Of a stretch of DNA of 64,000 bases, positions 1,180 to 20,400 are shown one piece after another. Position 1 is the stretch's first letter. Every line of letters begins with the position of its first letter. This DNA is from Rugalucina vietnamica. Taxonomy: Eukaryota; Mollusca; Bivalvia; Lucinida; Lucinidae. The DNA lies in contig OZ024876.1 of the NCBI GenBank assembly GCA_964017185.1, forward strand, positions 16,938,226 to 17,002,225. The letters are read 5' to 3'. The notes under the pieces were generated by a model, which saw only the letters and a program-made list of their open reading frames with translations, had not been told where the DNA came from and searched no databases. The position numbers and the translations under genes are program-made.

Positions 1180-4100
1180 GTAAGTTACATACTTGTAAAA
1201 ACTTAAATTCAAATGTTTTATATTTATAAAAAATTATCATACATGTACTCATTTTCAAAATTCCTCCGAGAAACTCCGCGAAACCGACTTTGATCGACAA
1301 ATCAAGGTAATTACCTTTCTCGGAGAAACACCGAGAAATTTCACCGAGAAACACCGAGGAATTTCGCGCAGACGATTTTGTCTACCTGGCTTATTTCGCG
1401 GTGTTTCTCCGAGAAATGAAAATTTCGCGTTTGCCATGGTTGCGGAGAAACGCGGAATATGTTGTTTTTAATTTACCGGGAGTGTATAAATAATCCAAGT
1501 CACATGACCAAGATGGCCGCCATGCCCATATATGGTAAAAACTCTTCAAAAATCTTTTTCTCTGGAACCGATAGACCAATTTCAATGAAACTTGGCATGA
1601 AGCATCGATGGCTAAAGCACTACAATGTATATATAAATCATGACCCTGTGATGACCTTGACTTATTTTATGGCAAGGTCAACATAGGTCGCCAATGCATT
1701 TGAATGGGGAAAACTTTTAAAATGACATTTAAAGTGAAAGTCTTGCAGGAAATGGGCAGTATTAATGATTCTGAAAAAAATTGGACCCCAGGGGCTCATG
1801 TGCCCCCACCCCGGGGCAATATACATGTATATCTTCACGATATTCAAACGTCTGCTCCTCTGAAACCACTTGACCAATCAAAGCCAAATTTTATGTAATG
1901 CATCAATAGGAAGGGTTAACCAATGTGTATATAAATAATCCAGGTCACATGACCAAGATGGCCGCCATGCCCAAATATGGTAAAAACCCTTCAAAAACCT
2001 TTTTCTCTGGAACCGTTGGACCAATTTCAATGAAACTTGGCATGAAACATCGATGGCTAAAGCACTACAATGTATATATAAGTCATGACCCTGTGATGAC
2101 CTTGACCTATTTTATGGCAAGGTCAACATAGGTCACCAATGCATTTGAATGGGGAAAACTTTTAAAATGTCATTTAAAGTGAATGTCTTGCAGGAAATGG
2201 GCTAAAGGACTGACTATTAATGATTCTGACAAAAAATGGACCACAGGGGCTCATATGCCCCCACCCCGGGGCAATATACTTGTATATCTCCATAATATTC
2301 AAACATGTGCTCCTCTGAAACCACTTGGCCAATCAAAGCCAAATTTTATGTGAAGCATCTAAAGGATGGGGTAATCAATGTATATATAAATAATCCAGGT
2401 CACATGACCAAGATGGCCGCCAGGCCCATATATGGTAAAAATCTCTCAAAAATCTTCTTCTCCGGAACCAGTGGACAGATTTCAAGGAAACTTGGCTTGA
2501 AGCATCGATGGCTCAAGTACTACAATGTATATATAAATCATGACCCTGTGATGACCTTGATGGCGAGGTCAACATGGGTTGCCAATGCATTTGAATGGGA
2601 ATAACTGTTAAAATGTCATTTGAAGGAAAAAGCCAGCAGGAAATTGGCAAATGGACAAAATATTGATTATTCTGAAAAAGAAAAAGGCCCAAGGGCTTCA
2701 TCTGCCCCTGCACTGGGATTAAATACCATAATATTCAAACATGTTTATTGGTATATGCTGCAGATCTCAGGTGAGTGTTTACAGGACCATTGGTCCTCTG
2801 GTTTAACATGTTGGTGCATTCACAGGTGGATCAACACCTATTTTTGGTAGAGTTACACTGCAGCAGATATTTAATGAGCCGCATCGTGAGAAAACCGGAT
2901 TTTTGCCTAGGCGAAAACAAAGGCGCAGATCAGCTTCGCGGTAACCGCGAAGCTGATCAGCGCCTTTGTTTTCGCTACACGGATAGTATATTTCCTCTTC
3001 TTCTTATATCCGAAATTTCAAGCTTCTAGCCTGCTTCTGAGACTGTACAGCCCGGTTTGTGTCGGACCTGGTCGGAAATCCCGAAGACCGGTTTTCTCGC
3101 GTCGCGGCTCTAATATGCACTGCTTATTGAACCTTTTTTCACAGAATTAAAGCATGCAAGAAAAATACTAGAGTTTTTGAATACTCTTTGAAAACTCTCA
3201 ATAGACAAGTATTGCAAAACATACTTCCTATTAGAGCAGGCCCCGAGGTTATAAGAGATTTTTCGTGCTCAGCTCAGCTGAGACTAAAATTTATCCTGCT
3301 CATAAATGTTAAAATGCCAACAATTGTTGGCATTTTAACATTTGTAAGCAGGTTAAATTACAGGCTTTGGTGATCTAAACCTGAAATTTCAATTTATTTT
3401 CACTATTTCTGCATTTATGAGCAATTTGAATTTTGGTCTCAGCTGAGCTGAGCATGAAAAAGGTTTTATAACCTCGGGGCCACGTCTCATTCTCACTCCA
3501 GTCTACAAAACCCTAGTAAGAAGTCTGATAATGTTTTGCAGTAATTAATGTACACATCATTTTTGGGAATGTGGAATACATACTTGGTTTACAGTACCTT
3601 AACATTACAAAAACTTGCCCATGCATTATACAGATTTTTTTTTTCATATGTAAAAAAAGAAAATAATCACTAGAAAAATTTTGATATTTGTTTCCTATTT
3701 TTGCTCAAAACATAGATTGTGGGTACATGTTAGAACTGCCTTGTTGATGCGGTTCTAACGAGTACACACAATCTATGTTTTGGAGCAAAAATAAGAAAAA
3801 TAGATATACCCCTGCAAACCCCAGTTTTTCTATATAAAAGTGGGGTTCAAGGGGGTAAACATTTCATGGACATGTGTTCCTGATGATGTTCATATTTCGT
3901 CTAGGTCAGGCAGATTTCATCGGGAACAGCATTGAGAAGTTCTCCAAACTCCGTATAGATGACATCCACACTATAGTTCATGAGAGTTTCAATGAGTGTG
4001 AAAAACTTCAGCTATTACGTCAAGGCTCAGAACCGGAAGGGATTGTTGAGGACTCAGTTAGTCAGACAAAGAGTTTCTTTGAGCTCATTAGTACCACTAA

Positions 4101-7100
4101 TACTGGCTATAAACAGGCTTTAGACATGACAAGTTCTAAGAACAAAGGTAAATGATCTATCACTCGAGAAAACCAGCAATACGGGTTTCTGACCAGGGCT
4201 CACACAAACTGGCATGTACAGTCCCAGAAGCAGGCTAACAGCCTGAAATTTTGGATTTAAGAAGTATTGCGATTATACTATCCGAGTAGCAAAAACAAAG
4301 GCGCTAATCAGCTGTGCAGTTACCGGTTTCACATATGAAGATTTATGGTTTTCTGATCCATTGGCTTAGATCATAATTTGCAGCATAAGTGAGTATTCTT
4401 GGTATGCAGACACCAATTTCAGAATTGAAATTTGAGCCGCAATGCCAGAAAAAAAACCGGTCTTCAGGGATTCCGAGTAGGTCCGACACAAACCTGCCTG
4501 TGCAGCTACAGAAGATGGCTAGAAGCTTGAATTTTCGGACTTGGAAATCAGTGGAATGGTATTATCCGTTTAGCGAAAACAAAAGGGCTGATCAGCTTCG
4601 CAGTTACTGCGAAGGGGATCTGCATCTTTGTTTTCACATAGGCAAAAATCTGGTTTACCTCTGTCTGTCAGTGCATATGAAATTATTGCCGAGCAGAGAA
4701 TCGCCTGTGCTTGCTATGACAGCCTAATAACAGAGTTTTCCACTGTCTCAGATCTTTCTGAAATGTTTTCTGTTTTTTTTTTTGTTTTTTTTTCTATTTC
4801 ACCAGAAAATTTCTTTTCCATGTGTCTGCCCATTAATTAGAAATGGAGCTTACTAAGAATCAGAACCAAGATTTCTAAAATGAGCCACATCATAATAAAA
4901 AACGGATTTTTGCCTATTCGAAAACAAACGCGCAGATCAGCTGTGTAGCTGATCAGTGCCTTTGTTTTTTCTACTCAGATAGTACAATTCCTCTTTTTCC
5001 TAAATCCAAAATTTCAAGCTTCCAGTCCTTTTCTGTGACTGTATAGGCTGGTTTGTGTTGGACCTGGTCGGAAACCCCGAAGACCGTTTTTTTCCGCATT
5101 GCGGCTCAAATGATGTAGGTGTAAAATAAAAAATGGTCTTGTTCCCACTAACTTGGCACAGATTGGGTAGAGTCAGTAAGTTAGAAAAAATTTTTTCTAT
5201 TTTTTAAAATGTACGTAAAACATTGAGTTTACAAAAATAAAACTTGCTGAGCACAAAAGCTCAGGAAGGGTTGGGTTAGTTGAAACTACAATTTTTTTTT
5301 TTTTTATTTGCACTGTATTTACTTTGAAGCAAGTAGAATATAAATGCTGCATTTAGCCATTTTTGTATCAATGATTTTCAAGGTATTGGGGCCAAAGTAA
5401 AGCAAGGAGAGACACTAGCGGTTCACCAAGCTGTAAAGACTGTGACAAGAATTGTCTCCCCTTGTGATGGACTGGTTACAGATATTACCACTGGAGCTTC
5501 TGGTGAACCAGTCTATACTGTGAAGCCTGAGCAACAGAATCAGTCTGGAGAAATGCATTCTGGGTACAGGTAGTCTTTGAATTTTTAAATTTTTATTTGA
5601 ATTTTAGTTTTCAGCTCAAATAAAAATGGTAAAGTACTGTAAATTCGGAAATTTTCGGGTGACTTTTATTTTGCGAATTTTCTATATACGAATTATTAGC
5701 GAGTTCTTGAATTTGCGAGTGAGTGTCCATGTATTCTATAAATTTTATAGTGACTCTTTATTAGCGAGAACTTTGAATTCGCGAGGCAACCAATACGCAA
5801 ATATTAGCGAAAATTAAGTTCTCGTGAATATTTGTGGATCTACAGTATACAGATGTAGCTTATCATTATATTTGGAGGAAAGCAAATACTTAAAAACTGA
5901 GGTTCCATCCCTGTATGACCTTAGCTGTTGGTGGAATATTAAACCCACACTCACCGACTTGGAATCAATCTTACATTATGAAAACTTGCTCATGCAATAT
6001 AGAGAGGTTTTTCTAGCTGTAAAAAGTTAAAAATTTCTTCAGAAAATGTTTCATATTTTTGCTCAAAACATAGGTTGTGGGTACAGGTAAGAACCGCCGC
6101 GCCAAGGCGGTTCGAACGAGTACCCACAATTTATGTTTTGGAGTGAAAAGAAGAAAAATAGGTTTACCCCTGCATACCCTAGTTTTGCTATATAAAAGTG
6201 GGGTTCAATGGGGTATACATGTTATGGACATGTTATCCTGATGAGAATGTGCAAGCAAAGCAAACCAACTGCTACAGTCCTCCTGACTTGTGCAGCTGAA
6301 AGCAAATACACACATGAGCTGCAACATGAGAAAAGTTTCAGAAAACTAGATTTTTGCTTATGTGCAGCTACTGCACAGCTGATCAGGACCTTTGTTTTCA
6401 CTCCATGGATAGTACAATCCCTCTTCTTCATAATCTTCATAGCTTGCTTCTGTAACTGTACAGGCTGGTTTGTGTTATACTTAGTCAGATACCCCTATGT
6501 CCTGTTTTTTGCTGCCATGGCTCATAAAATTATGTCTTATAAAGTACCGGTATGATTGTTTAGAAAATACAGTTTTTAACTTTGTTCTTTATTTTGTCAG
6601 TAAGCAGATGCCAAACCTACGACAGACACAAAGTGACCTATTTAATATTGAGCTGTTTAAAAGCCAAGTCCAAACAAAAGCCATTGGGCAACAGCTCACG
6701 TACATGGAATCTACTGGGTCCACCATGGATGATGCAAAATTGGCGGCTCAACGAGGTACCGGATTTTTTGTTTGTTTGAAGGATTGTAGTATTGCAAGAC
6801 AATCTAGTTGTCTGAAAAATGTACACAAACATTATATTCTTAGAAACATAATGCAAAAAAAGAAGTTGACCTACATTCGAGCTGCGCCATGAGAAAACCG
6901 GATTTTTGTCTATTTGAAAACAAAGGTGCAGATCAGCTTTGCAGTAAATGCTAAGCTGATCAGCACCTTGTTTTCGCTACACGGATAGTACAATTCCTCT
7001 TTTTCCTAATTCTGAAATTTCAAGCTTCTAGCCATCTTCTTGCTTGTACAGGTCGGTTTGTGTCAGACGTGGTTGGAAACCCCGAAGACTGGTTTTCTCG

Positions 7101-10100
7101 TGTCACAGCTCATTTTGTTGCAGTGACAAAGGCAGCAAACAGGAAATGCCTTACAGACCTGAATTAAATAGAAGCATATTATTTTCTGCTTGTTACAGAA
7201 TCATTCATACTAAACTAGGAAAACACATCAGGAAAACATGTCTGTGACATGTATACCCCCTTGAACCCCACTTTTATAAAGACAAACTGTGGTTTACAGG
7301 GGTATACCTATTTTTCTTATTTTTGCTCCAAAACATAGATTGTGGGTACTCGTTAGAACTGCCTCAGCTAGGCGGTTCTAATGTCTACCAACAATCAATA
7401 TTTTGAACAAAAATATCAAAATTTTTCTACTGAAAATTTTCAGCTTTTACAACTTTAAAAAACCCTGTATATTGCATGGGCTTGTTTTCATAATGTATCA
7501 ATTCTGACAGGTTGTCCTTCTGGCTCAGTCTTTATGGCAGAGACAATGACCAAGGGTCGAGGTCGTCAAGGAAAAACTTGGACTGCTCCACCAAAAGGCA
7601 ACATCTACATCACTTTTGTATTGCGTTTAACAGAAAAGGTACATATTATCACATATGAGCCACCACATGGGAAAACCAACAATCTGCATATGCGAAAACA
7701 AAGACGCAGATCAGCTTCGCGGTAACCGCGAAGCTGATCGGCGCCTTTGTTTTCGCTACTTGGATAGTACAATTCCTATTCTACTTAAATCGGAAATTTC
7801 AAGCTTCTTCTAGCTCTTTTCTGTGACTGTACAGGCCGGTTTGTGTCGGACCTGTTCGGAAACCACATTGTTGGTTTTCCCACGAGGCGGCTCATATAAG
7901 ATATGAGAGAAAGGGTCTGCTTGGTTTCCAACCAAGTCTGACACTAACCAGGGTTTACAGTCACAGAAAAAAGGCTAGAAGAATGAATGATATTTGTTTT
8001 TATCTTCTTAATTCTTGCAGGTGCATGTAATAAGGAGAACCATAAAACACTCTGAAAATGAGTAAGACGGGCCTGTTAACTGCCCTTGAATGTCTGAAAA
8101 AGTCTCCTAGACTTATAGAGGGGAACGTTTTGTAGCCTTGATTTTTCTCATCAATAGGCTAGGTTTACTCAAGAAAGTATCCTTGCCAAAGACCACACAA
8201 TAAGCAATCTATTTCTTCAGTTTACATGGGATTATAGCGGTAAATCTTTATTCCCTGGTGCATTTCAATCGTCAGTTTAAAAAAACACAAAACAAACAAT
8301 CTGTTATCTAACAAAATCCTTACTGCATGCCATGTGATCTTTAATGAAGAAACATTGCTTGTCTGACCCAAGCTTCACAAAAGGTTGTTGTATAATATAG
8401 ACATCTTTCCATTTCAGTCTTCTTGTCTTGTTCAGTTTGCTGCTGCCCTGGCTGTTGCCAAGGCAATAAGGTCAGAGGGTCTAGAGGCCAAGGTCAAATG
8501 GCCAAATGATATTTGGGTCAAAGGTCACAAGGTCAGCGGTATTCTGGTGGAGGCAGAGATGTCAGCAGCTGTCAGCAGTCGTGATACTAACAAGGAAGAA
8601 ACAAAAGGGATTGCAAATGGCAATTCTAGCCAATCAAATCAACCAGAACCGGTGACATTTTATCTAGGAATAGGGATCAATGTAAATGATGACACAAGAC
8701 GAAATCCCGCCCTCAGAAACATGGCAACAAGTATTTCTAGTGAACTCTTTGGTCAGAAGATAACAAGGGAGAGAATCCTTGCCAATTTGTGTTTGGAGTT
8801 GGAATTTGCCCTTGACAAGAGTATGGCAGCCATTTTGACAGAGCTGGAGCCATATTTGTTGTTAAGTAGGTCATCAGAGGTGAAGGTCACGCCCAAAGAT
8901 GATGAAGAATTTACTGCAGTGGTGGAGAACATAGATAACATGGGGAGACTGCATGTCCAAAGTAAGAAAATGAGCCTAAGAAAAACAGGATTTTGTGCTT
9001 AACAATTGAGCCTGTGCATGAGAAAACAAACAATTTGGGTTCAGACCAGGTCCAACACAAACCGAGCTGTACAGTCAAAGAAGATGGCTAGAGGCTGGAA
9101 ATTTTGGATTTAGAAAGAAGAGGAATTGTACTATCCCTGTAGCAAAAACAAAGGCGCTGATCAGCTTCGCAGTTACTGGATCAGCTTCGCAGTTACTGCG
9201 AAGCTGATCTGCGCCTTTGTTTTTGCCTATGCAGATTGTAGGTTTTCCCATGCGGCAGCTCATTGTTGTTGCTCTTACGTTGGGTTTAACATCCCACCAA
9301 CAGCCAAGGACATACATAGCCCAGAATCAAACTATCTGACCCTGGATGACAAGGCCATTGTCTTAACCAATATGCCACAGAGGCTTTTCAGAAATGTCTG
9401 GCACTTGGGAATCTCAGATACATAGATTTGGGTGACTTTAAAGAGCTATGTGCATTGAGCAGGTTTTTTGCCCCTTACAAGCCAAAAATGAAATTCTAGG
9501 TATTTGGATTAAGAATTTTATTGTTTGATGTCTTAAGAGTGGATAAGAGGAATTGAATATCAAGTAGCAGTATGGCAGCAATGCATTGGTGTATAATCAT
9601 GTATGCTAAATGATACCTTCAATGAAATGAATGTTAGTATTTTGAGAAATTGCCTGCCAAGGTTTGTTGCAGTTAGGCTCATATGTGTATTAAAATCCAA
9701 ACAAAAACCATCAATAAATGAGCCTCCTCATGGGAAAACCAACAATGTGGTTTCCGACCAGGTCCAATACAAACCGACCTGTACAGTCACAGAAAAGAGC
9801 TAGATGCTTGAAATTTCGGATTGGATTTAAATAGAACAGGAACTGTACTATCCGAGTAGCGAAAACAAAGGCGCTGATCAGCTTGGCAGTTACTGCGAAG
9901 CTGATCTGCGCCTTTGTTTTTGCATATGCAGATTGTTGGTTTTCTCATGAGGCAGCTCAAATTTTAAAACAATAATCTAATAGCCTACCCGTTACCTCTT
10001 GGAAAGGTCTCCAGTAGATCCCGTATTTATATGAGCCTCATCATGAGAAAACCGACATTCTGCATATGCAAAAACAAAGGGGCAGATCAGCCTCGCAGTA

Positions 10101-13100
10101 GTGCAAAGCTGATCTGCCCCTTTGTTTTGCTACACAGATAGTACAATTTCTCTTCTTACTAAATCCAAAATTTCCAATTTCTGTGCTTGTACAGCTTGGT
10201 TTGTGTCAGACCTGGTGGGAAACCATATTGTTGGTTTTCTTATGATGTGGCTCATATAGTAAAAAGGAAGTTTGAGGGGATAAAGGTGAAATATTAATAA
10301 TTGGATTCTAAATATAAATTGTATTTATTTTCATCAATATTGGTCTGTGTTCTTATGAAAAATACAAATTGTTTAAAAAAATATCTCAAATAGACCAAGC
10401 AACAGACAAGAAGCTCTGGCCCCAACCAACTAAAATGAATAGCTTTAAGTTGGGGCCATCATACAGTCTGAGCCTGACCCACCGACATGCAATTAAAGAA
10501 GGCAGCATAGTTATCAACCATAATTGGGTTAAAAACTAAGCATGCAGACTGTCTCATATCATTGAAGTTATATCCTATATGTTTGTGTTTGTAATGTATA
10601 GTGATTTTTCTAAACTGATATTCTTAATTTTGTAAACCAAGTCATTATAAAATTTTGGTTCCAAAAGGTCATCATGTAAAAGCGCCTTTAACCCAACATT
10701 AAATTTGGAAATCAATTCATAGTGTCTACGATGAAATTTAGAAAAATGTTGTGTTTTTTTTTGTTGTTGTTTTTTTGAAGTTTATGGTATCGATAGCCCT
10801 GCTGGAGAAGTTTGGCCGTTAAACATTTATTTGGTGCATTGAAGTCCATAAATTAGCCCATTACCTTTTGGAGAAAAGTTACATGTACATTTTGCTAAAT
10901 GTTGTCACAACATCATGTGCCATAATATGTTTTCTTGTTTATTTATAGGAACAGATTCTGACCATGAGGTAGTTCTATCTGACCTGATGACCTCTGTACG
11001 ACCTTCACCTTGCCATTATATCTATGTGTATGAAGGTGACGGCTCAAGTAAACAGAGTGTTCATATGTTATACGAGTCATTACTGGTGATGTGTGATGTG
11101 TCAAAGTACATGGTCAAGAAAATCTCACCAGAGGATATAAAACAAGGTAATTTAGCCTTTGCAAGTGAAAACCAACAATTCAGGTTTCCGACCAGGTCTG
11201 ACACAGACTGGACTGTGCAGCCAAGCAGTCTAGAAGCTTGAAATTCTAGATTTAAGAAGAAGAGGAATTGTATTATCTATGAAGCGAAAAAACAAAGACC
11301 CTGATATCTTAGTCTTTGTTTTCGCCTATTATATGCATATTGTTGTTAGCTCACCTGAGCCGAAGGCTCACAAGGTGAGCTTATGGTACAGTAGTCGAGC
11401 CGGCGTCTGTCCGTGCGTGCGTCCACATTTTCAAACTCAAATATCTCTAAGACAACAAGGCCGATCATGATCAAATTTTATCTAAAGCATCATTGAAGAG
11501 GGGGAAAGGTTGCATTAGGTTTTGGGCCAGGTCGGATTGGAACTCTGGTTTCCATGGCAACAGATAGCTCCCATAGACTTACAATGGGAAAAACATAAAA
11601 AAAAAACTTCTTCTCCGAAACCACAAGTCCCAGACCTTTCATATTTTGTGTGTAGCAATGTATAGTGGTCCTCTTTATAAATCCTGCCAACCGTGCCCCT
11701 GGGGTCCATACAGGCCCCGCCCCGGGGGCTTGATGGGGCAAAACATAAAAAAAACTTCTCCGAAACCGCATGGCCCAGAGCCTTCATATTTTGTATGTAG
11801 CAATGTATAGTGGTCCTCTTTATAAATCCTGCCAACCGTGCCCCTGGGGTTCATACAGGCCCCTAGGGGGGTGGGGGGTGGTCATGGGTAAAACATAAAA
11901 AAATCTTCTTCTCCGAAACCAAAAGGCAAAGAGCTTTCACATTCTGTTTGTAGCAATATATAGTGTTCCTCTTTATAAATCCTGCCAACCTTGCCCCTGG
12001 GGTCCATACGGGCCCAGCCCCAGGGGCGTCATGGGAAAAACTTTAAAAAATCTTCTTCTCCGAAACCATAAGGCCCAGAGCTTTCATATTTTGTGTGTAG
12101 CAATGTATAATGGTCCTCTTTATAAATCCTACCTACTGTGCCCCTCGGGTCCATACAGGCCGCGCCCCGGGGGTCATTAGGAAAAACATAAAAAAATCTT
12201 CTTTTCCAAAACCACAAGGCCCAAAGCTTTCATATTTTGTATGTAGCAATGTGTAGTGGTCCTCTATATAAATCCTGCCAATCATGCCCCTGGGGTCAAA
12301 AATGGCCCCGCCCCGGGGGTCATTAGCTCCCATAGACTTACAATGGGAAAAACATAAAAAATCTTCTTCTCCGAAACCACAAGGCCCAGAGCTTCCATAT
12401 TTTGTCAGTAGCAATGTATAGAGGTCCTCTTTATAAATCCTGCCAACCGTGCCCCTGGGGTCCATACGGGCCCTGCCCCGAGGGCGTCATGGGAAAAACA
12501 TAAAAATCTTTTTCTCCGAAACCACAAGTCCCAGAGCTTTTATATTTTGTTTGTAGCAATGTATAGTGTTCCTCTTTATAAATCCTGCCAACCGTGCCCC
12601 TGGGGTCTATATGGGCCCCGCCCGGGGGCGTCATGGGAAAAACTTTAAAAGATCTTCTCCAAAACCACAAGGCCAAAAGCTTTCATATGTTGTATGGACC
12701 AATGTATAATCCTCTTCTTTATAAATGCTGCCAACGGTGCCCCTGGGGTCCATACAGGCCACGCCCCAGGCATGTCATTATCTACCATAATATATGATAA
12801 AATCTTCTCTGCAACAGCATGACACAAAGCTTGTATATTTGATATACAACATTGTCATGTGGTGCTCTACATAAATCCTACCAAACTTGCCCCTGGTGTC
12901 AAATATGGCCCCACCTAGGGGGTCATTATAGGACCCTGACCTTGTTAGATGATTTTTTCACGTGAACCAAAATGGCAGAAAAGAGGATACACAATCCAGA
13001 CAAGAGCTCTTCTGCTGATGTAAGAAGGGTTTCAAGGTCACATGACCAAGGTGGCCGCCATACCCATATATTGTAAAACCCCCAATTACTTTGTCCAGTG

Positions 13101-16100
13101 ACTGTACTTGTTGACTCTCAGGTGAGCGATCGTTGCCCCTGGGCTACTTGTTTTTCTTATGCAGCAGCCCAATATGCTTTATTATGAAAACTTTTTTATG
13201 CAATGTAATACTGTAATTTTTTCAAGTTGTACAAATTGAAAATTTCATTTGAAAAATTATGAAATCTTTAATAGTTTTGCTCAAAACATTGATTGTTGGT
13301 ACAGGTTAGAAGGGCCTCGTTGAGGCGCTTCTATTGAGTACCAACAATCTATATTTTGGAGCAAAAATTCAAAAAATAGTTTACCCCTGTGGCCAAAACG
13401 TGAGAAAATGTAATCAGGAGATGCAGTCTGGTGGATTTTTATGAAACTCTCAATCATTACGAAAACACGTCCATGCAATGTATGGAGTTTTTTTTCATCT
13501 GTAAAAATTGAAAAATTAATTGGATTTTTATTTTTTATTTTTCTTATTTTTACTCAAAAAGTAGATTGTTGGTACACGTTAGAACTGCCTCACCGAGGCG
13601 GTTTTAACAAGTACCAACAATCAATGTTTTGGAGCAAAAAATTGAAAAAGAGGTATACATACCTCTGCATACCCAAGTTTTGCTTCATAAAAGTGGGGTT
13701 CAAGGGGGTATACATTACATGGACATGTTTTCATGATGATATGTGCACTGAATCATTTGTTCATGCAGAGAATAGGAATTATTCTTAAAGTAACTATTAA
13801 AAGAATGATTTTGACCAACACTATTTTCTTTTTATATCAGTGAAACATAATCATTGATTAAAGGTTGATAAAATTTTGACAGTGTCTGGAATTTTGCTTT
13901 CATTACGAAAACATGCCCATGCAATATATGAGATTTTTTAAAGTTGTAAAAATTGAAACTTTTCATTAGAAAAGTTTCGATATTTTTCTTATTTTTGCTC
14001 AAAACATAGATTGTGGGTACACGTTAGAACCGCCTCGCAGAGGCGGTTCTAACGAGTACCCACAATCTATGTTTTGGAGCAAAAATAAGAAAAATAAGTA
14101 TACCCCTGCATACCCCAGTTTTGCTATATAAAAGTGGGGTATAAGGGGGTATACATTATACGGACATGTTTTCGTGATGAAAGTGTTTTGGCACCTTTTC
14201 ATGATATGAAGCATATTTTACTGCTCTCATAATATAAATGAGGGTGGTATGTTTAATGCTAATTACTGTTATAGCTAATCAAAGTTGGAACCAGCATGAC
14301 CACCATTACTGATTTCAGTAATCTCCAGTCATGACATACAGGTGTCTGTTATCTCAATAATTTGTTCTAGGCTTTGAGTCCGAGTAGAGGAATTTCAGCA
14401 AAGTTGCTGTGGGACAGCAAATATATCAGTGTTAAATGCCTTGATGCAAGGCAAAATTCCAAGCAGTGACAAGGGGAATGGATATAAGCTGCTTTGCTAT
14501 ACCTGGCACTATAAAGAATATGAAGCTCTTTGTGAAAATTGGGTACACAATTTAGTTTTTGCTACATGGATAGTACAATTTTTCTTCTTCTTAAATCCGA
14601 AATTTCAAGCTTCTAGCCTGCCTGTGTGACAATACAGACTGGTTTGTGTCAGACCTTGTCGGAAATCCTGAAGACCAGTTTTTTTGCGTAGCGGCTCATT
14701 TTTAAAATACCAACAGTATTTCTGTTAGGACCACCATCTAATTATGTTTTGAGTAAAAACTAATGCCAACCCCAATTTGAGAATACAAGAATATGATTGG
14801 GTTAAAATGACACGGATGTGTAAGCATGTCCTGCTGTAGATGAAGACTGTAGCTTTGTACTTCAGGTCACTGGGTCAACTCGGCTGCTATCTTGGCTATA
14901 GGTGGAGGGTTTGATACTGGCTACATGAGAGCCCTGGGGCCAAATGGTCTCAAAATGATAAAAGATTATGTCCATGCTGGGGGCAGGTACCTGGGTATCT
15001 GTGCAGGGGCATATCTTGCCTGCCGAGAAATTGAGTTTGATAGAGGTGGACCTCTTGAAGTGTGTGGCCAGAGAAGTTTGGAATTCTTCCCAGGTATTTT
15101 CAAAAGAACTTATTGCAAAATGATTGACCCATCCTGAAGGGCAAGGCTACTGTCACTCCTTAAATGATACAAATTATATGAGCCGCAATGCAAGAAAACC
15201 GGTCTTCTGGGTTTCCGACCAGGTCTGACACAAACTGGCTTGTGCAGCTACAGAAGATAGCTAGAAGCTTGAAATTTTGGATTTAGAAAGTAGAGGAATA
15301 GTACTATCGTAGAGCGAAAACAAAGGCACTGATCAGCTTGGCAGTAAACTGCGAAGCTGATCTGCGACTTTGTTTTTGCATAGGCAAAAATCCAGTTTTC
15401 TTGTGATGCGGCTAATATGACTTGCATCATGAGAAAACCTGTCTCCAGGGGCTTCCAGTCAGTTGTGTAGTAATTGCAATGCCTTTTCATCCTAAATTCT
15501 AGATTTCAACCCTCTAATCATCTTCTGTAGCTGTGCAGCCTAGTTCATGCTACACCTGTTCAGAAACCCCAAAGATTTACATTGTTAAGGTGCAGCACAT
15601 AAAGCTTTGCTCTTCAGGATCATGGACCCAGTATTGTTACCTATTAGCCATTGGTGGTGGCTTTGCCTCAGGCTTTATAAGGGCCCTTTCTGATGAAGGG
15701 ATCCAGAAAATCCAAGATTTTGTCAAATCAGGAGGGAGATATCTTGGAATAGGGGCAGGAGCTTATTTTGGAGCACAGGCAGTCGAGTTTGATAAAGGTG
15801 GACCACAAGAGAAATGTAGATCTGATTACCTGTTGAATTTTTACCCAGGTACTGAGTAGTTTAGTATTTTGCTTTGAAAGATGGGATATTTTCGACTGCC
15901 TAAGTCTTTTTTAGATTAATTTCTTTATATAAAATTTTAAGAATTATATTTTCAAATCACAAAAACTTGACATTAAACATCAATATTTGAAAATGTCAAA
16001 TTAAAACTGACAAGCTGCATAAGACTTTAACTTATAAAATTGTTTTTGTAGGCAAATGTATTGGCCCAACCTTCCCTGGCTTTGTTTACAACAGTGAAGC

Positions 16101-16464
16101 TGGTGCCCGAGCTGCAGAAATCAAATGGACTTCACAGGCATCTACAACACAGCAAGAAACCAGCTGGACTGGTTATGTTTACTACAATGGAGGCGGCCAT
16201 TTCGAAATAGACTGTCCAGCCAGTGAAAATGTTGAGACAATTTCTGAACTCCTTAATTCTCCAGATGGGAAAATTCACACAACTGCTGTGAAATGCAAGG
16301 TGGGAAAAGGACTGGCAGTTTTGAGTGGTGTTCATTTTGAATATTTGCTTGAGGATTTGGATGAAACTGATCAGTATTTGAAAGAAATTATGCCCAAACT
16401 TGGAGACACGGTCTCTCAGAGGGACAGGTTTTGTATGACTGTGATGCATATGTTGGGTCTGTGA
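1032..16464 (+). CDS. Biotin-protein ligase (holocarboxylase synthetase-type), rearranged domain order; whole gene
   Basis: Enzyme that adenylates biotin and transfers it to the acceptor lysine of carboxylases. Exons: 1032-1179 (candidate), 3905-4147, 5383-5569, 6601-6755, 7511-7638, 8418-8961, 10949-11146, then 14866-15093 and/or 15618-15848, then 16052-16464 with stop TGA. Every GT/AG junction agrees in phase, giving 747 aa with the first alternative exon or 748 aa with the second. Residues ~131-175 form a biotinyl/lipoyl-like hairpin. The catalytic core includes STGSTM (230-235), GRGRQG (260-265), KWPND (314-318) and GIGINVN (371-377). A BPL_C-like end lies at ~430-487. A BPL_N-like amidotransferase domain spans ~490-747, with GGRYLGICAGAY (Cys580) and GVHFE (His705, Glu707). 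Eukaryotic ligases usually carry BPL_N first, so this order is odd. Its relation to canonical HLCS is unresolved, so no symbol is given. Confidence 0.85.
1255..1465. repeat. Short CGAGAAAC-rich inverted-repeat segment
   Basis: Repeats of CGGAGAAACACCGAGAAATT and its inverse around CAGACGATTTTGTCTACCTGG. It lies in the first intron if the candidate first exon is real. Family unknown. Confidence 0.6.
1485..2806. repeat. CTCACCTGAGC-type element, left truncated
   Basis: Three direct repeats of ~440 bp, each opening near GTCACATGACCAAGATGG (1500, 1945, 2400), ending with CAGGACCATTGGTCCTCTGG. No usable coding capacity. Confidence 0.7.
2876..3110. mobile_element. MITE family A, full copy (reference)
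   Basis: Ends GAGCCGCATCGTGAGAAAAC and its near-inverse TTTTCTCGCGTCGCGGCTC. The centre is a palindrome: AAAACAAAGGCGCAGATCAG, CTTCGCGGTAACCGCGAAG, then the inverse. ~235 bp, no coding capacity. Confidence 0.95.
3239..3481. mobile_element. MITE family D, copy 1
   Basis: GGCCCCGAGGTTATAA at the left, its inverse at the right, subterminal CTCAGCTCAGCTGAGAC, and a central palindrome ATGCCAACAATTGTTGGCAT. Confidence 0.9.
3604..3890. mobile_element. MITE family B, full copy
   Basis: Ends ACAAAAACTTGCCCATGC and CATGGACATGTGTTCCTG; central palindrome ACATAGATTGTGGGTAC returning inverted around GTTAGAAC. Ends ~15 bp before biotin ligase exon 2. Confidence 0.92.
3905..4147 (+). CDS. Biotin ligase exon 2, N-terminal linker
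   Basis: Acceptor TTTCGTCTAG, donor AAAG|GTAAAT, phase 1 to 1, open throughout. It encodes an acidic, probably helical segment (begins QADFIGNSIEKF) of no known domain. A family B MITE ends about 15 bp before the exon. Confidence 0.65.
4163..4362. mobile_element. MITE family A, degenerate
   Basis: Reverse orientation; recognisable GACCAGGGCTCACACAAACT and AAAACAAAGGCGCTAATCAG. It begins ~15 bp after biotin ligase exon 2. Confidence 0.75.
4434..4665. mobile_element. MITE family A copy
   Basis: GAGCCGCAATGCCAG at the left, centre CTGATCAGCTTCGCAGTTAC; right end eroded. Confidence 0.85.
4882..5107. mobile_element. MITE family A copy
   Basis: GAGCCACATCATAATAAAAA ... TTCCGCATTGCGGCTC; centre palindrome shortened to CAGATCAGCTGTG. 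Confidence 0.9.
5383..5569 (+). CDS. Biotin ligase exon 3, biotinyl/lipoyl-like hairpin
   Basis: Phase 1 to 2 (TTTCAAG|GTATTG ... TACAG|GTAGTC). The peptide contains GAKVKQGETLAV, then HQAVKTVT, then SPCDGLVTDI. This follows the hairpin of biotin carboxyl carrier and lipoyl domains, where the modified lysine sits in A-M-K-M or D-K-A. Here the lysine is Lys149 (codon 5436-5438) in A-V-K-T. The usual flanking Met/Glu residues are missing and the first half of the barrel is not obvious, so acceptor function is inferred. Confidence 0.75.
5630..5850. mobile_element. MITE family G, copy 1
   Basis: AT-rich element (TACTGTAAATTCGG ... TCTACAGTATA) with ends in inverted relation and repeated 'attagcgagaactt' motifs. 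It recurs inverted and split at 42182-42289 plus 43499-43612. Confidence 0.7.
5974..6242. mobile_element. MITE family B, full copy
   Basis: GAAAACTTGCTCATGCAAT ... ATGGACATGTTATCCTGATG, with the central palindrome. Confidence 0.92.
6316..6523. mobile_element. MITE family A copy, diverged
   Basis: GAGCTGCAACATGAGAAAAG ... TTTTTTGCTGCCATGGCTC. Confidence 0.85.
6601..6755 (+). CDS. Biotin ligase exon 4, start of the catalytic domain
   Basis: Acceptor TTTTGTCAG at 6600, donor CGAG|GTACCG, phase 2 to 1. It encodes the opening of the catalytic fold, with YMESTGSTMDDAK matching the family motif S-T-x-x-T-x-x-x that contacts biotinyl-adenylate. Confidence 0.85.
6879..7111. mobile_element. MITE family A, full copy
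   Basis: GAGCTGCGCCATGAGAAAAC ... TTTTCTCGTGTCACAGCTC. Confidence 0.93.
7227..7496. mobile_element. MITE family B, reverse copy
   Basis: Starts CAGGAAAACATGTCTGTG, ends TTGCATGGGCTTGTTTTC. It stops ~14 bp before biotin ligase exon 5. Confidence 0.92.
7511..7638 (+). CDS. Biotin ligase exon 5, GRGR adenylate-binding loop
   Basis: Acceptor TCTGACAG, donor GAAAAG|GTACAT, phase 1 to 0. It encodes AETMTKGRGRQGKTW, the glycine/arginine-rich loop that orders around biotinyl-AMP in BirA-type ligases, then the strand NIYITFVLRL. A reversed family B MITE ends ~14 bp before the exon. Confidence 0.9.
7667..7893. mobile_element. MITE family A, full copy
   Basis: GAGCCACCACATGGGAAAAC ... TTTTCCCACGAGGCGGCTC, flanked by ATAT on both sides (4-bp target duplication). 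Confidence 0.95.
7900..8417. other. Biotin ligase intron 5, mostly unique
   Basis: A weak family A remnant (7920-7985), then ~430 bp with no repeat or exon recognised. Confidence 0.6.
8418..8961 (+). CDS. Biotin ligase exon 6, catalytic lysine region and start of BPL_C
   Basis: Acceptor TTTCCATTTCAG, donor CCAAA|GTAAGA, phase 0 to 1, 181 codons. It has AKVKWPNDIWVKG (the family's catalytic KWPND), VSGILVEAE, then a low-complexity Ser/Asn/Glu insert (residues ~335-366) where BirA has a short loop, then YLGIGINVN. The end (FTAVVENIDNMGRLHVQ) enters the SH3-like C-terminal domain. Confidence 0.92.
9008..9261. mobile_element. MITE family A copy with a duplicated arm
   Basis: The arm GATCAGCTTCGCAGTTACTG occurs twice in tandem. 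A stray end fragment (GAGCCTAAGAAAAACAGG) sits just before it at 8972, ten bp after the biotin ligase exon 6 donor. Confidence 0.92.
9720..9958. mobile_element. MITE family A, full copy
   Basis: GAGCCTCCTCATGGGAAAAC ... TTTTCTCATGAGGCAGCTC. Confidence 0.94.
10033..10253. mobile_element. MITE family A, full copy
   Basis: GAGCCTCATCATGAGAAAAC ... TTTTCTTATGATGTGGCTC, flanked by ATAT. Confidence 0.94.
10254..10948. other. Biotin ligase intron 6, unique part
   Basis: AT-rich, no exon or known repeat seen. Confidence 0.6.
10949..11146 (+). CDS. Biotin ligase exon 7, fuses the BPL_C end to the BPL_N start
   Basis: Acceptor TTTATAG, donor CAAG|GTAATT, phase 1 to 1. The first ~18 codons (HEVVLSDLMTSVRP) complete the ligase C-terminal barrel. 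They continue without a break into YIYVYEGDGSSKQS, the first strand of the BPL_N amidotransferase-like domain. One exon thus holds both domain edges, which argues the unusual order is genuine. A family A MITE begins ~8 bp after the donor. Confidence 0.85.
11155..13172. mobile_element. MITE family A split by the 11.3-13.2 kb element
   Basis: Body 11155-11346 and end 13153-13172 (TTTTTCTTATGCAGCAGC). It begins ~8 bp after the biotin ligase exon 7 donor. Confidence 0.8.
11347..13152. repeat. CTCACCTGAGC-type element with ~145-bp tandem units
   Basis: A complete copy: AGCTCACCTGAGCCGAAGG at the left, CTCAGGTGAGCGATCG at the right. Between are about eight units containing TCTTCTCCGAAACCACAAGG and TGCCAACCGTGCCCCTGG. 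It is inserted into a family A MITE, whose halves are 11155-11346 and 13153-13172. Confidence 0.8.
13180..13396. mobile_element. MITE family B, right end missing
   Basis: Left arm and central palindrome (ATTGTTGGTACAGGTTAG...) present; sequence breaks off after TTTACCCCTGTGG. Confidence 0.8.
13456..13739. mobile_element. MITE family B, full copy
   Basis: CATTACGAAAACACGTCC ... ATGGACATGTTTTCATGATG, with the central palindrome. It lies 60 bp from the previous copy. Confidence 0.92.
13900..14181. mobile_element. MITE family B, best-preserved copy
   Basis: Nearly perfect centre: GGTACACGTTAGAACCGCCT, a short loop, then AGGCGGTTCTAACGAGTACC; flanking AAACATAGATTGTG arms are intact. This can form a long hairpin. 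Confidence 0.95.
14553..14697. mobile_element. MITE family A, right half
   Basis: GCTACATGGATAGTACAATT to TTTTTTTGCGTAGCGGCTC. Confidence 0.85.
14866..15093 (+). CDS. Biotin ligase exon 8a, amidotransferase-like core with Cys nucleophile
   Basis: Acceptor TACTTCAG, donor TTCCCAG|GTATTT, 228 nt, phase 1 to 1. It encodes AILAIGGGFDTGYM, then GGRYLGICAGAYLA (Cys580), EIEFDRGGPLEVC and LEFFPG, all typical of BPL_N. It is the tandem paralogue of 15618-15848. The two have interchangeable phases and are roughly half identical in protein by eye, so they are best read as mutually exclusive. Confidence 0.9.
15180..15413. mobile_element. MITE family A, between the duplicated ligase exons
   Basis: GAGCCGCAATGCAAGAAAAC ... 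TTTTCTTGTGATGCGGC. It lies in the 524-bp intron between exons 8a and 8b; a diverged fragment follows to ~15530. Confidence 0.92.
15618..15848 (+). CDS. Biotin ligase exon 8b, duplicated amidotransferase-like core lacking the Cys
   Basis: Acceptor GCTCTTCAG, donor TACCCAG|GTACTG, 231 nt, phase 1 to 1, no stop. It has LAIGGGFASGFI, GGRYLGIGAGAYFG and AVEFDKGGPQEKC. Gly replaces the nucleophilic Cys of exon 8a. The conserved frame and splice sites suggest a functional, non-catalytic alternative rather than a decaying copy. Confidence 0.85.
16052..16464 (+). CDS. Biotin ligase last exon, end of the amidotransferase-like domain
   Basis: Acceptor TTTTTGTAG, phase 1, 136 codons then TGA. It contains FPGFVYNSEAGARAAEI, a signature of BPL_N, YVYYNGGGHFEID, and LSGVHFEY, whose His705/Glu707 fit the His-x-Glu of a class I amidotransferase triad. 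The protein ends ...TVMHMLGL. Confidence 0.9.
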
Positions 16465-16854: not shown

Positions 16855-17487
16855 TCAGAAACAATTTGGTTTAATTTTGTTTAGATATTTGTTAACAAAA
16901 TCTGGCACTAAAGGAATCTCAAAACCATTTTTGCAGATTTGGAAGAATGTATGTTGCATTGCATGTGTTTTAAGATCATTGTGGAACAAACGTGTCATAA
17001 GAATACTTAGAATCGATTGGTCAAAACGATGGCAGTCAAAATATACATGATCATTGTGGCAGCCAATCAAATCCACTGGAGCCATACACTGCTCTGTTAG
17101 TGCACATGACACCCAGGGTATCATAAAATATTGCAATATAAAATCATTTGCATAAATTATAATAAATGTTGCCTCGAATTCTTTTATATCTCTGAACACA
17201 CAAGGAGATTCCTGAAGAAATTTGAAGGTTTTCTCACTGGTTCTCGCAGCAATTGGTCCAAATCCAACCGCTGCTTGCACTCCTACTGTTCGTGAATGGT
17301 CAAATATTTTATCCAGATCTTTTGACTTAAACCTCACAGAGGCATCCATCCAAACAACAAATCTGTGAACTTTCAACACCATTTGAATAGCAAGAGGTTT
17401 CCAGCAATATCGTTTGAGGTTTCTAACATGGTCAGGATATTCATGGAATGGAAACTTGATAACTTCACATCTGCAAGTACTGATAAG
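16855..17487 (-). CDS. DUF1647-like gene, last exon
   Basis: 210 codons plus stop, phase 0 start. It holds YCWKPLAIQMVLKV, VVWMDASVRF, VGFGPIAARTSEKTF, then the Cys/His-rich CALTEQCMAPVDLIGCHND and the tail. No poly(A) signal was evident just downstream on this strand. Confidence 0.8.
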   Translation of the reverse strand, partial: LISTCRCEVIKFPFHEYPDHVRNLKRYCWKPLAIQMVLKVHRFVVWMDASVRFKSKDLDKIFDHSRTVGVQAAVGFGPIAARTSEKTFKFLQESPCVFRDIKEFEATFIIIYANDFILQYFMIPWVSCALTEQCMAPVDLIGCHNDHVYFDCHRFDQSILSILMTRLFHNDLKTHAMQHTFFQICKNGFEIPLVPDFVNKYLNKIKPNCF

Positions 17488-20400
17488 CTGTAACAATAAA
17501 ACAAAATATATGTTGTATCCATATATACATGAACAGATCTTTAACTTAAAGGAGTTTTCTTTATTAAATGAAAACTAGAATTGTCAGAGAATCTGACTAT
17601 AGCCCCGCTTCTCAGCTTTTTTGCAGGGTGAAAAAAAAACAATGACAGGTAACTATCACAGGCTATCACAAGCTAGATCTCATCAATATTGATGCTCATA
17701 CAAAATTTGGTCTGATTATGTCAATTCGTTCTCTGTCAAACTTTTGCGAAAAATGACGGTAATAATCCAAAGCTAGATCTTGTCAATGATGATGTGCATA
17801 CAAAATTTAGACGGATTCTGTCAATTCGTTCTGAAGATATTGAGCGGAAACAAAATTCTGAAGTCAATCAAGGGCTGTTAACTCCATCAAAATTTTGTGA
17901 AAAATGACGGGTAACAATCCCAAGCCAGATCTTGTCAATGTTGATGTGCATACAAAATTTGGTTGGATTCTGTCAATTCGTTCTCAAGATATTGAGCGGA
18001 AACAAAATTCTGACGTTAATTAAGGGCCATAACTCTGTCAAAATTTAACAAAAACTGAAGGGTATTACAATCCCAAGCTAGATCTTGTCAATGTTGATGT
18101 GCATACAAAATTTGGTCGGATTCTGTCAATGCGTTCTCAAGATATTGAGCGGAAACGAAATTCTGACGTCAATTAAGGGCCGTAACTCCGTCAAAATTTT
18201 GCGAAAAATGACGGGTAACAATCCCAAGCTAGATCTTGTCAATGATGATGTGCATACAAAATTTGGTCCGATTCTGTCAATTTGTTCTCAAGATATTGAG
18301 CGGAAACGAAATTCTGACGTCAATCAAGGGCCATAACTCCGTCAAAATTTTGCGAAAAATGACGGGCAACAATCCCAAGCTAGATCTTGTCAATGTTGAT
18401 GTGCATACAAAATTTGGTCGGATTCTGTCAATTTGTTCTCAAGATATTGAGCGGAAACGAAATTCTGATGTCAATCAAGGGCCGTAACTCCGTCAAAATT
18501 TTGCAAATAATAACAGGTAACAATCCCAAGCTAGATCATGTCAATGTTGATGTGCATACAAAATTTGGTCGGATTCTGTCAATGCGTTCTCAAGATATTG
18601 AGCGGAAACGAAATTCTGACGTTAATCAAGGGCCATAACTCCGTCAAAATTTTGCGAAAAATGACGGGTAACAATCCCAAGCTAGATCCTGTCAATGATG
18701 ATGTGCATACAAAATTTGGTCCGATTCTGTCAATTCGTTCTCAAGATATTGAGTGGAAACGAAATTCTGACGTCAATCAAGGGCCATAACTCCGTCAAAA
18801 TTTTGCGAAAAATGACGGGCAACAATCCCAAGCTAGATCTTGTCAATGTTGATGTGCATACAAAATTTGGTCGGATTCTGTCAATTTGTTCTCAAGATAT
18901 TGAGCGGAAACGAAATTCTGATGTCAATCAAGGGCCGTAACTCCGTCAAAATTTTGCAAATAATAACAGGTAACAATCCCAAGCTAGATCATGTCAATGT
19001 TGATGTGCATACAAAATTTGGTCGGATTCTGTCAATGCGTTCTCAAGATATTGAGCGGAAACGAAATTCTGACGGTAATCAAGGGCCATAACTCCGTCAA
19101 AATTTTGCGAAAAATGACGGGTAACAATCCCAAGCTAGATCCTGTCAATGATGATGTGCATACAAAATTTGGTCCGATTCTGTCAATTCGTTCTCAAGAT
19201 ATTGAGCGGAAACGAAATTCTGACGTCAATCAAGGGCCATAACTCCGTCAAAATTTTGCGAAAAATGACGGGCAACAATCCCAAGCTAGATCTTGTCAAT
19301 GTTGATGTGCATACAAAATTTGGTCGGATTCTGTCAATTTGTTCTCAAGATATTGAGCGGAAACAAAATTCTGATGTCAATCAAGGGCCGTAACTCCGTC
19401 AAAATTTTGCAAATAATAACAGGTAACAATCCCAAGCTAGATCATGTCAATGTTGATGTGCATACAAAATTTGGTCGGATTCTGTCAATGCGTTCTCAAG
19501 ATATTGAGCGGAAACGAAATTCTGACGGTAATCAAGGGCCATAACTCCGTCAAAATTTTGCGAAAAATGACGGGTAACAATCCCAAGCTAGATCCTGTCA
19601 ATGATGATGTGCATACAAAATTTGGTCCGATTCTGTCAATTCGTTCTCAAGATATTGAGCGGAAACGAAATTCTGACGTCAATCAAAGGCCATAACTCCG
19701 TCAAAATTTTGCGAAAAATGACGGGTAACAATCCCAAGCAAGATCTTGTCAATGATGATATGCATACAAAATTTGGTCCGATTCTGTCAATTTATTCTCA
19801 AGATATTGAGCGGAAACGAAATTCTGACGTCAATCAAGGGCCATAACTCCATCAAAATTTTGCGATAAACGATGGGTAACAATCCCAAGCTAGATCTTGT
19901 CAATGTTGATGTGCATACAAAATTTGGTCAGATTCTGTCAATTCGTTCTCAAGATATTGAGCGGAAACGAAATTCTGACGTCAATCAAGGGCCATAACTC
20001 CGTCAAAATTTTGCGAAAAATGACGGGTAACAATCCCAAGCTAGATCTTGTCAATGTTGATGTGCATACAAAATTTGGTCAGATTCTGTCAAGCCATTCT
20101 CAAGATAATGAATGGAAACAAAAATGTCGGAAGGACGATTCCGGGACATCTCGGCCCATAACAAACTCGGCCCATCACAAACTCGGCCCTTGACAAACTC
20201 GGCCCATGACAAACTCGGCCACCAAATCTAGGACCATACCAACTAGGCCCATACCAACTCGGTCCCTATCTACTAGATACTATGACAACCTCATTGCTGT
20301 GTATTATAGGAAGTTATAAACATTGATTTGATAGAAAAAATTTTTTTTAGTATTAATGTGTTTGAAGATGATACACATTAGGAACCCCAGACTGTTTTCC

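Follow-up and report, generated by a model that had tools for sequence, protein, structure and literature searches.

Which protein is encoded at a locus of the bivalve Rugalucina vietnamica where a biotin ligase seems to be followed by the BPL_N domain that should precede it? The window, meaning the whole stretch of 64,000 nucleotides that was analyzed (GenBank assembly GCA_964017185.1, contig OZ024876.1, forward strand; C8:16938226-17002225 in our numbering), belongs to a 1.09-Gb genome in 47 contigs. The original prediction, made from the letters of the window, placed at 6601-16464 a ligase gene with its catalytic domain first and BPL_N last. With moderate confidence, we interpret the locus as a single, longer gene for a four-domain protein, in which a flavin adenine dinucleotide (FAD) monooxygenase resembling kynurenine-3-monooxygenase (KMO), a carrier domain resembling the glycine-cleavage H protein, a BirA-type ligase, and BPL_N follow one another on the same strand. 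The probability that one gene encodes such a protein and that its carrier is loaded by its own ligase is, in our estimate, roughly 0.55.

Structure of the composite gene

The gene model spans C8:16923073-16954689 and starts 15.2 kb 5' of the window. The predicted start at 6601 had to be abandoned, as exons 3905-4147 and 5383-5569, together with four more exons found in the 20 kb 5' of the window, extend the same frame back to an ATG. The exons are listed below by window position, with negative numbers given relative to window position 1.

-15152 to -14978 (+), exon U1, beginning at the ATG
-8649 to -8122 (+), exon U2
-7051 to -6888 (+), exon U3
-2825 to -2651 (+), exon U4
3905-4147 (+), exon A, last part of the KMO-like monooxygenase and beginning of the GCV_H-like carrier, placed by phases, AG/GT borders, PDB alignment, and Pfam
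5383-5569 (+), exon B, remainder of the GCV_H-like carrier (Pfam), with the putative attachment Lys codon at 5436-5438
6601-6755 (+), exon 1, start of the ligase domain
7511-7638 (+), exon 2, GRGRxG loop of the ligase, with a Met codon (7546-7548) at the position of the biotin-contacting Gln
8418-8961 (+), exon 3, KWPND, KxxGIL, and the remaining catalytic domain of the ligase, and the start of the C-terminal cap
10949-11146 (+), exon 4, presumed end of the C-terminal cap and first strand-helix-strand of BPL_N, with an in-frame ATG at 10987
14866-15093 (+), exon 5, BPL_N core with the nucleophile Cys codon at 15000-15002 (GICAGAY)
15618-15848 (+), exon 6, tandem duplicate of exon 5, with a Gly codon (15752-15754) replacing Cys (GIGAGAY)
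16052-16464 (+), exon 7, end of BPL_N with the triad residues His (16333-16335) and Glu (16339-16341), and the stop codon TGA (16462-16464)

Twelve exons make up each predicted isoform. The chain U1-U2-U3-U4-A-B-1-2-3-4-5-7 encodes 1045 residues with a single stop at its end, and the version with exon 6 encodes 1046 residues, again with a single terminal stop. The agreement of junction phases predicted for 6601-16464 was confirmed for all seven exons of that region, which have AG/GT borders, and it holds at every junction of the full chain, in which every intron is bounded by AG/GT. We infer from this that one transcript runs over all the exons. Another first exon, 1032-1098, was considered and dropped, as the chain via U4 fits both the phase and the KMO homology.

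Four domains were found above the cut-off in a Pfam scan of the 1045-residue product: FAD_binding_3 (residues 6-343, 72.6 bits), GCV_H (408-471, 23.2 bits; cut-off 22.2), BPL_LplA_LipB (529-632, 54.0 bits), and BPL_N (791-1045, 224.4 bits). The main claim of the original prediction was borne out, in that BPL_LplA_LipB (1.4e-14) comes before BPL_N and BPL_N reaches the stop codon. Class III ligases have these two domains the other way round, as does the canonical holocarboxylase synthetase (HLCS) that this genome also contains. The prediction had missed the duplicated exon as well as the monooxygenase and the carrier, and their presence changes the picture of the gene that it had given. This fusion was not described in the titles and abstract openings of the papers listed by our literature searches, which does not establish its absence from print.

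A decaying gene or an assembly artefact is a highly improbable explanation of the locus. Its introns are rich in repeats, but all exons are open over the 3.4 kb of coding sequence and lie in order on one contig of 63.7 Mb. Exons 5 and 6 are, in addition, saturated with differences at synonymous sites and not at non-synonymous sites.

Monooxygenase, carrier, and ligase domains

Among solved proteins in the PDB, KMOs are the closest to the first 375 residues (6lkd, 1.9e-26). The alignment extends by about 25 residues into exon A and ends at residue 375, and in each of four tests between 0 and 2 of 5000 shuffles equaled the KMO-like tail in this exon. Since exon A holds both this tail and the start of GCV_H, the monooxygenase is joined to the carrier within one exon. 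The N-terminal part of the product has the FAD_binding_3 fold in common with KMO and retains the flavin motifs GAGPVG, DG, and GD. It differs from KMO in reading PFLGQGLN in place of PFFGQGMN or PFYGQGMN, and the C-terminal membrane part of KMO is presumably absent from it.

GCV_H scored 26.7 bits on exons A and B together (cut-off 22.2) and 28.2 bits on a trimmed piece, with a match that spans only positions 19-82 of the 122 in the profile. Exon B alone stayed below the cut-off (19.5 bits), and the NCBIfam equivalog for gcvH (TIGR00527) was not reached, with 20.9 bits against 115.85. The canonical GCSH exon of the genome, on contig C9, reads ESVK at the attachment site, unlike the carrier of the composite gene.

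The ligase scored 56.5 bits for PF03099 (cut-off 21) and 107.7 and 112.5 bits in two scans with TIGR00121, birA_ligase (cut-off 83.1); BPL_C, at 15.7 bits, fell short of the 21 bits that Pfam requires. The closest solved relative of the ligase is 1wnl (3.1e-16), from P. horikoshii. The ligase motifs GRGRxG, KWPND, and KxxGIL, a Trp, and a Ser-Thr pair are kept. In the Staphylococcus aureus ligase, the biotin ureido ring is contacted by Ser, Thr, Gln, and Arg (PMC5039522). Ser, Thr, and Arg are conserved in the composite gene, whereas Gln is replaced by Met; the Gln occurs in all seven other rows of the alignment (six bacterial ligases and the HLCS on contig C6), and Met in the composite gene only.

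Duplicated exon and the BPL_N triad

One piece of BPL_N is present twice in tandem, as exons 5 and 6, which are 228 and 231 bases long and both of phase 1-1; 38 of their 75 aligned residues are identical. The proportion of differences was 0.76 at synonymous sites (pS, saturated) and 0.33 at non-synonymous sites (pN). With synonymous sites saturated at such a pN, the exon was duplicated long ago and has stayed coding in both copies, which suggests that exons 5 and 6 are old alternative exons. The E-value for Pfam BPL_N was 2.8e-87 with both exons included and 6.4e-68 and 1e-63 for the single-exon versions, either of which fills the profile from position 3 to 263. Because each exon completes the profile by itself, mutually exclusive use would be the simplest reading.

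The two versions would differ in a residue of the Cys-His-Glu triad. The Cys is found in exon 5 only, its place in exon 6 is taken by Gly, and exon 7, common to both versions, supplies the His and Glu; thus, the triad is complete with exon 5 and lost with exon 6. Against a BPL_N profile built from 24 bacterial rows, exon 5 scored 60.5 bits and exon 6 50.0 bits. The triad of yeast Bpl1 was mapped to C89, H215, and E217, with no glutaminase activity, and all three residues were reported in seven fungal and two animal sequences, with at least His and Glu kept in four others (PMC12582158). A BPL_N without the Cys is therefore not new; what is notable is the presence of both versions within one gene.

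The triad was counted in all 33 bacterial loci that were fetched (31 distinct open reading frames (ORFs)), which include the 24 rows of the profile. It was complete in 30 of the 33 loci, or 28 of the 31 distinct ORFs; the others were L043, which has Gly, and L044 and L045, which have the Cys and no aligned His-Glu part. Among the 30 with a complete triad, L036, L038, and L039 have two tandem BPL_N domains, the first with Gly or Ser in place of the Cys (GVGAGAY, GVGAGCY, and GISAGGY) and the second complete, an arrangement resembling that of exons 6 and 5.

These three proteins set a precedent for a different reading of the duplication, in which the transcript contains exon 5 together with exon 6 and there are no alternative isoforms; the domain would be enlarged and have a catalytic and a non-catalytic half. 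The lengths of both exons are divisible by 3 and their phases are equal, so that the frame would be kept (1122 residues), and the intron of 524 bases between them is no obstacle. The bacterial proteins, however, double the whole domain including its own His-Glu part, whereas the composite gene doubles the core only, and either exon alone already completes the profile. We regard joint inclusion as a somewhat unlikely alternative and retain mutually exclusive use of the two exons.

BPL_N is patchy in bacteria: a match at an E-value of 0.001 or better was found in 26 of 149 genomes of one phylum and in 1 of 14 control genomes. No match was obtained in plasmids, nor in viral contigs, and a pattern search of genome contigs led nowhere, with 465 pattern matches and one locus. 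Two neighboring genes of a Thermoguttaceae metagenome-assembled genome (L015, 4770-6290 and 6364-7887) have an N-terminal BPL_N (57.5 and 51.4 bits), and their C-terminal halves had no Pfam match at an E-value of 0.001.

Assessment of the single-gene model

The four-domain reading has to be set against a number of observations that speak in the opposite direction. The model was built by hand from the genomic sequence of one species. Exon A searched alone against PDB retrieved no KMO, and its best match, myosin-Va (E 0.16), was taken as noise. The GCV_H score of the full product is barely above the cut-off, and the attachment context of the carrier is Qx2Kx10G (QAVKT), as against the lipoyl motif Ex2Kx10G (PMC4518038); the biotin motif MKM is also absent. 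In human pyruvate dehydrogenase, a change from Glu to Gln at this position of the attachment motif blocks lipoylation (PMC2753649). Biotin, in turn, is doubtful as the substrate of the ligase because Met replaces the conserved biotin-contacting Gln. Departures from the standard at specificity positions in both ligase and carrier would fit a private pair that handles another ligand, and they could also come from loss of function. As for the duplicated exon, tandem-exon swaps in human genes mostly keep the key functional residues (PMC9741552), so a routine loss of the catalytic Cys would be unusual.

Two further observations of this kind concern the join between the ligase and BPL_N. According to the original prediction, exon 10949-11146 bridges the two domains, as it was thought to contain the end of BPL_C (RTDSDHEVVLSDLMTSVRP) next to the first strand of BPL_N. 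The phase and the splice signals are in favor of this bridge, but the claimed end of BPL_C matched six bacterial C-termini at chance level, with 461 of 5000 shuffles scoring as well. The summed scores were also similar for the claimed piece (55), for the read-through of exon 3 (52), and for the next 19 residues of exon 4 (57). Exon 4 was thus rejected as sequence-level proof of the bridge. The exon also has the in-frame ATG at 10987 just ahead of BPL_N.

As there is no significant sequence bridge, the join of 8961 to 10949 rests on the phase and on strong splice sites, which were ranked using consensus frequencies. The donor at 8961 was at the 97.1st percentile of 920 GT sites in 17 kb, and the acceptor at 10949 was at the 98.5th percentile of 997 AG sites in 17 kb and third among the 141 AG between the ends of exons 3 and 4. 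Weaker acceptors are found elsewhere in the model, with those of exons B, 2, and 7 at the 66th to 74th percentile.

The ATG at 10987 keeps alive a reading as two or three adjacent genes on the same strand, in which the ligase would end past exon 3 and BPL_N would start at this ATG, or the monooxygenase would end with exon A. The read-through of exon 3 meets a stop after 13 codons, the start of exon 4 has the chance-level resemblance given above, and a biotin-ligase domain was found at an E-value of 0.001 in none of the 10 bacterial BPL_N ORFs scanned with Pfam; these points speak for separate genes. Against them stand the agreement of all junction phases, the strength of the sites flanking the join, the span of exon A over the KMO tail and the carrier, and the weak context of the ATG, with C at -3. 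Separate genes are in our judgment unlikely, and the single four-domain gene remains the preferred reading.

Related genes in the genome and origin of the fusion

The whole genome was searched exon by exon with profiles, and the resulting counts are lower bounds. PF09825 matched exons 5, 6, and 7 of the composite gene only (three matches). PF03099 gave five matches, in two exons of the composite gene, two exons on C6, and one exon on C13, and GCV_H gave two, in the canonical exon on C9 and in exon B. The KMO part gave six, namely its own five exons and a weak match on C4 (E 0.37), which reads GDAAHAMVPFYGQGMN and was taken as KMO by motif. The match on C13 (L007, C13:32841540, minus strand) reads RRKSGGGTVYHD, as in lipoyltransferases, and the exon resembles LIPT1, so lipoate machinery is separately present.

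A search for a second, canonical HLCS had been proposed along with the original prediction, and such a gene was indeed located on C6 using a human HLCS sequence. Its N-terminal domain (NTD), catalytic exons, and C-terminal cap are in canonical order, all on the minus strand. The NTD piece, which was missed in the genome-wide search, passes the BPL_N cut-off (28.8 against 24.2) and, aligned by eye, has GLGSGF at the position of the nucleophile Cys. Since exons of an ordinary HLCS (C6), GCSH (C9), and by-motif KMO (C4) lie elsewhere, the composite gene is an additional one.

The prediction had attributed the swapped order to a separate fusion route or to a circular rearrangement. A separate gene was supported. 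The idea that the only HLCS had recently been circularly rearranged was rejected, given the canonical gene on C6. The ligase is 26.1% identical to the HLCS of its own genome (from a piece joined by eye), within the range of 21.6-30.3% obtained for six bacterial ligases, and the 24-row bacterial profile gave 104 bits for BPL_N of the composite gene against 1 bit for the 87-residue NTD piece of HLCS; a recent HLCS rearrangement is thus unsupported. The composite gene may have arisen by a fusion of its own or from a class III ligase that was permuted long ago.

The composite gene might also be regarded as a second, ordinary HLCS in which BPL_N was moved behind the catalytic domain and which still biotinylates carboxylases. 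Both genes have the ligase domain and BPL_N, most of the ligase motifs are intact, and the two animal ligases join in an 8-row tree, although the support of 80/83 is not firm. We nevertheless hold this explanation to be improbable, as the canonical gene is present on C6, the identity to it is no higher than to bacterial ligases, and BPL_N is far from the NTD piece; the replacement of the contact Gln by Met and the fused carrier and monooxygenase are further points against it.

Proposed function and comparison with known systems

For the single four-domain protein, the following mechanism seems the most likely. With ATP, the ligase would activate biotin or a related small carboxylic acid and attach it to the carrier-domain lysine of the same chain, and the loaded arm of the carrier would then serve the FAD monooxygenase. 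BPL_N might recognize the carrier, as proposed for class III ligases, or might act on the amide bond of the carrier through its triad. The choice between exons 5 and 6 would swap the Cys-bearing piece and produce a triad-complete or a triad-deficient isoform. Every catalytic step is conjectured from sequence, and our confidence in the mechanism is low. Its most specific form, a self-loading machine for carrier-bound oxidation whose cofactor or substrate is something other than plain biotin or lipoate, with oxidation by the KMO-like enzyme and an amidase-like removal or editing step switched by exon choice, is speculative and rather doubtful.

Class III ligases, such as yeast Bpl1 and human HLCS, have the BirA-type catalytic domain and a BPL_N or glutamine amidotransferase-like domain in common with the composite gene. 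In these ligases the amidotransferase-like domain is N-terminal, whereas BPL_N of the composite gene is C-terminal and follows the ligase. The composite gene further adds the duplicated core exons, the monooxygenase, the carrier, and Met in place of the contact Gln.

The nearest functional analogy is the extended SirTM operon of S. aureus and Streptococcus pyogenes, with GcvH-L, LplA2, a luciferase-like monooxygenase, and an old yellow enzyme (PMC4518038; PMC11490716). An H-like carrier, a dedicated ligase, and flavin oxidoreductases form a module in both cases, a likeness of parts and not membership. The operon consists of separate genes and has an LplA-type ligase, other flavin enzyme families, a sirtuin, and a macrodomain, and BPL_N is not named in the available part of its description (PMC4518038). 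If the proposed reading is true, the carrier, ligase, and oxygenase would be present on one polypeptide, whereas the SirTM operon spreads such parts over genes.

For the duplicated exon, a parallel is found in the mutually exclusive exons of coq-2 in helminths, annelids, and molluscs, where exchange of one exon for another reshapes the core of an enzyme of metabolism, as proposed here. In coq-2, a change in substrate choice was demonstrated by RNA and mutants (PMC7434440), whereas in the composite gene the swap is predicted and would remove a catalytic residue. The relevance of the triad in yeast Bpl1 was called unknown by its authors (PMC12582158). One animal gene now appears to offer BPL_N both with and without the complete triad, and the role of the triad could be tested with these natural isoforms.

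Other features of the window

A short inverted-repeat element around GCTGATCAGCGCCTTTGTTTTCGC was found in 36 copies in the window with at most three mismatches, against a shuffle mean of 0.00. Examples are at 2911-2975, 9859-9923, and 58413-58477. The copies are often arranged in facing pairs about 40 bases apart and are also found in several introns of the composite gene, and the element looks like a repeat of the miniature inverted-repeat transposable element type. Two tandem repeats were observed, one with a 455-base unit before exon A (1485-2629) and one with a unit of about 146 bases within intron 4 (11584-12767).

An open frame of 239 residues on the minus strand (16858-17574) lies tail to tail with the composite gene, with a sub-threshold score for DUF1647 (23.8 bits against 25.7). 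Farther downstream, an open frame of 965 residues (52628-55522, plus strand) has reverse transcriptase, RNase H, and integrase domains (Pfam), in the usual order of Ty3/Gypsy-type retrotransposons.

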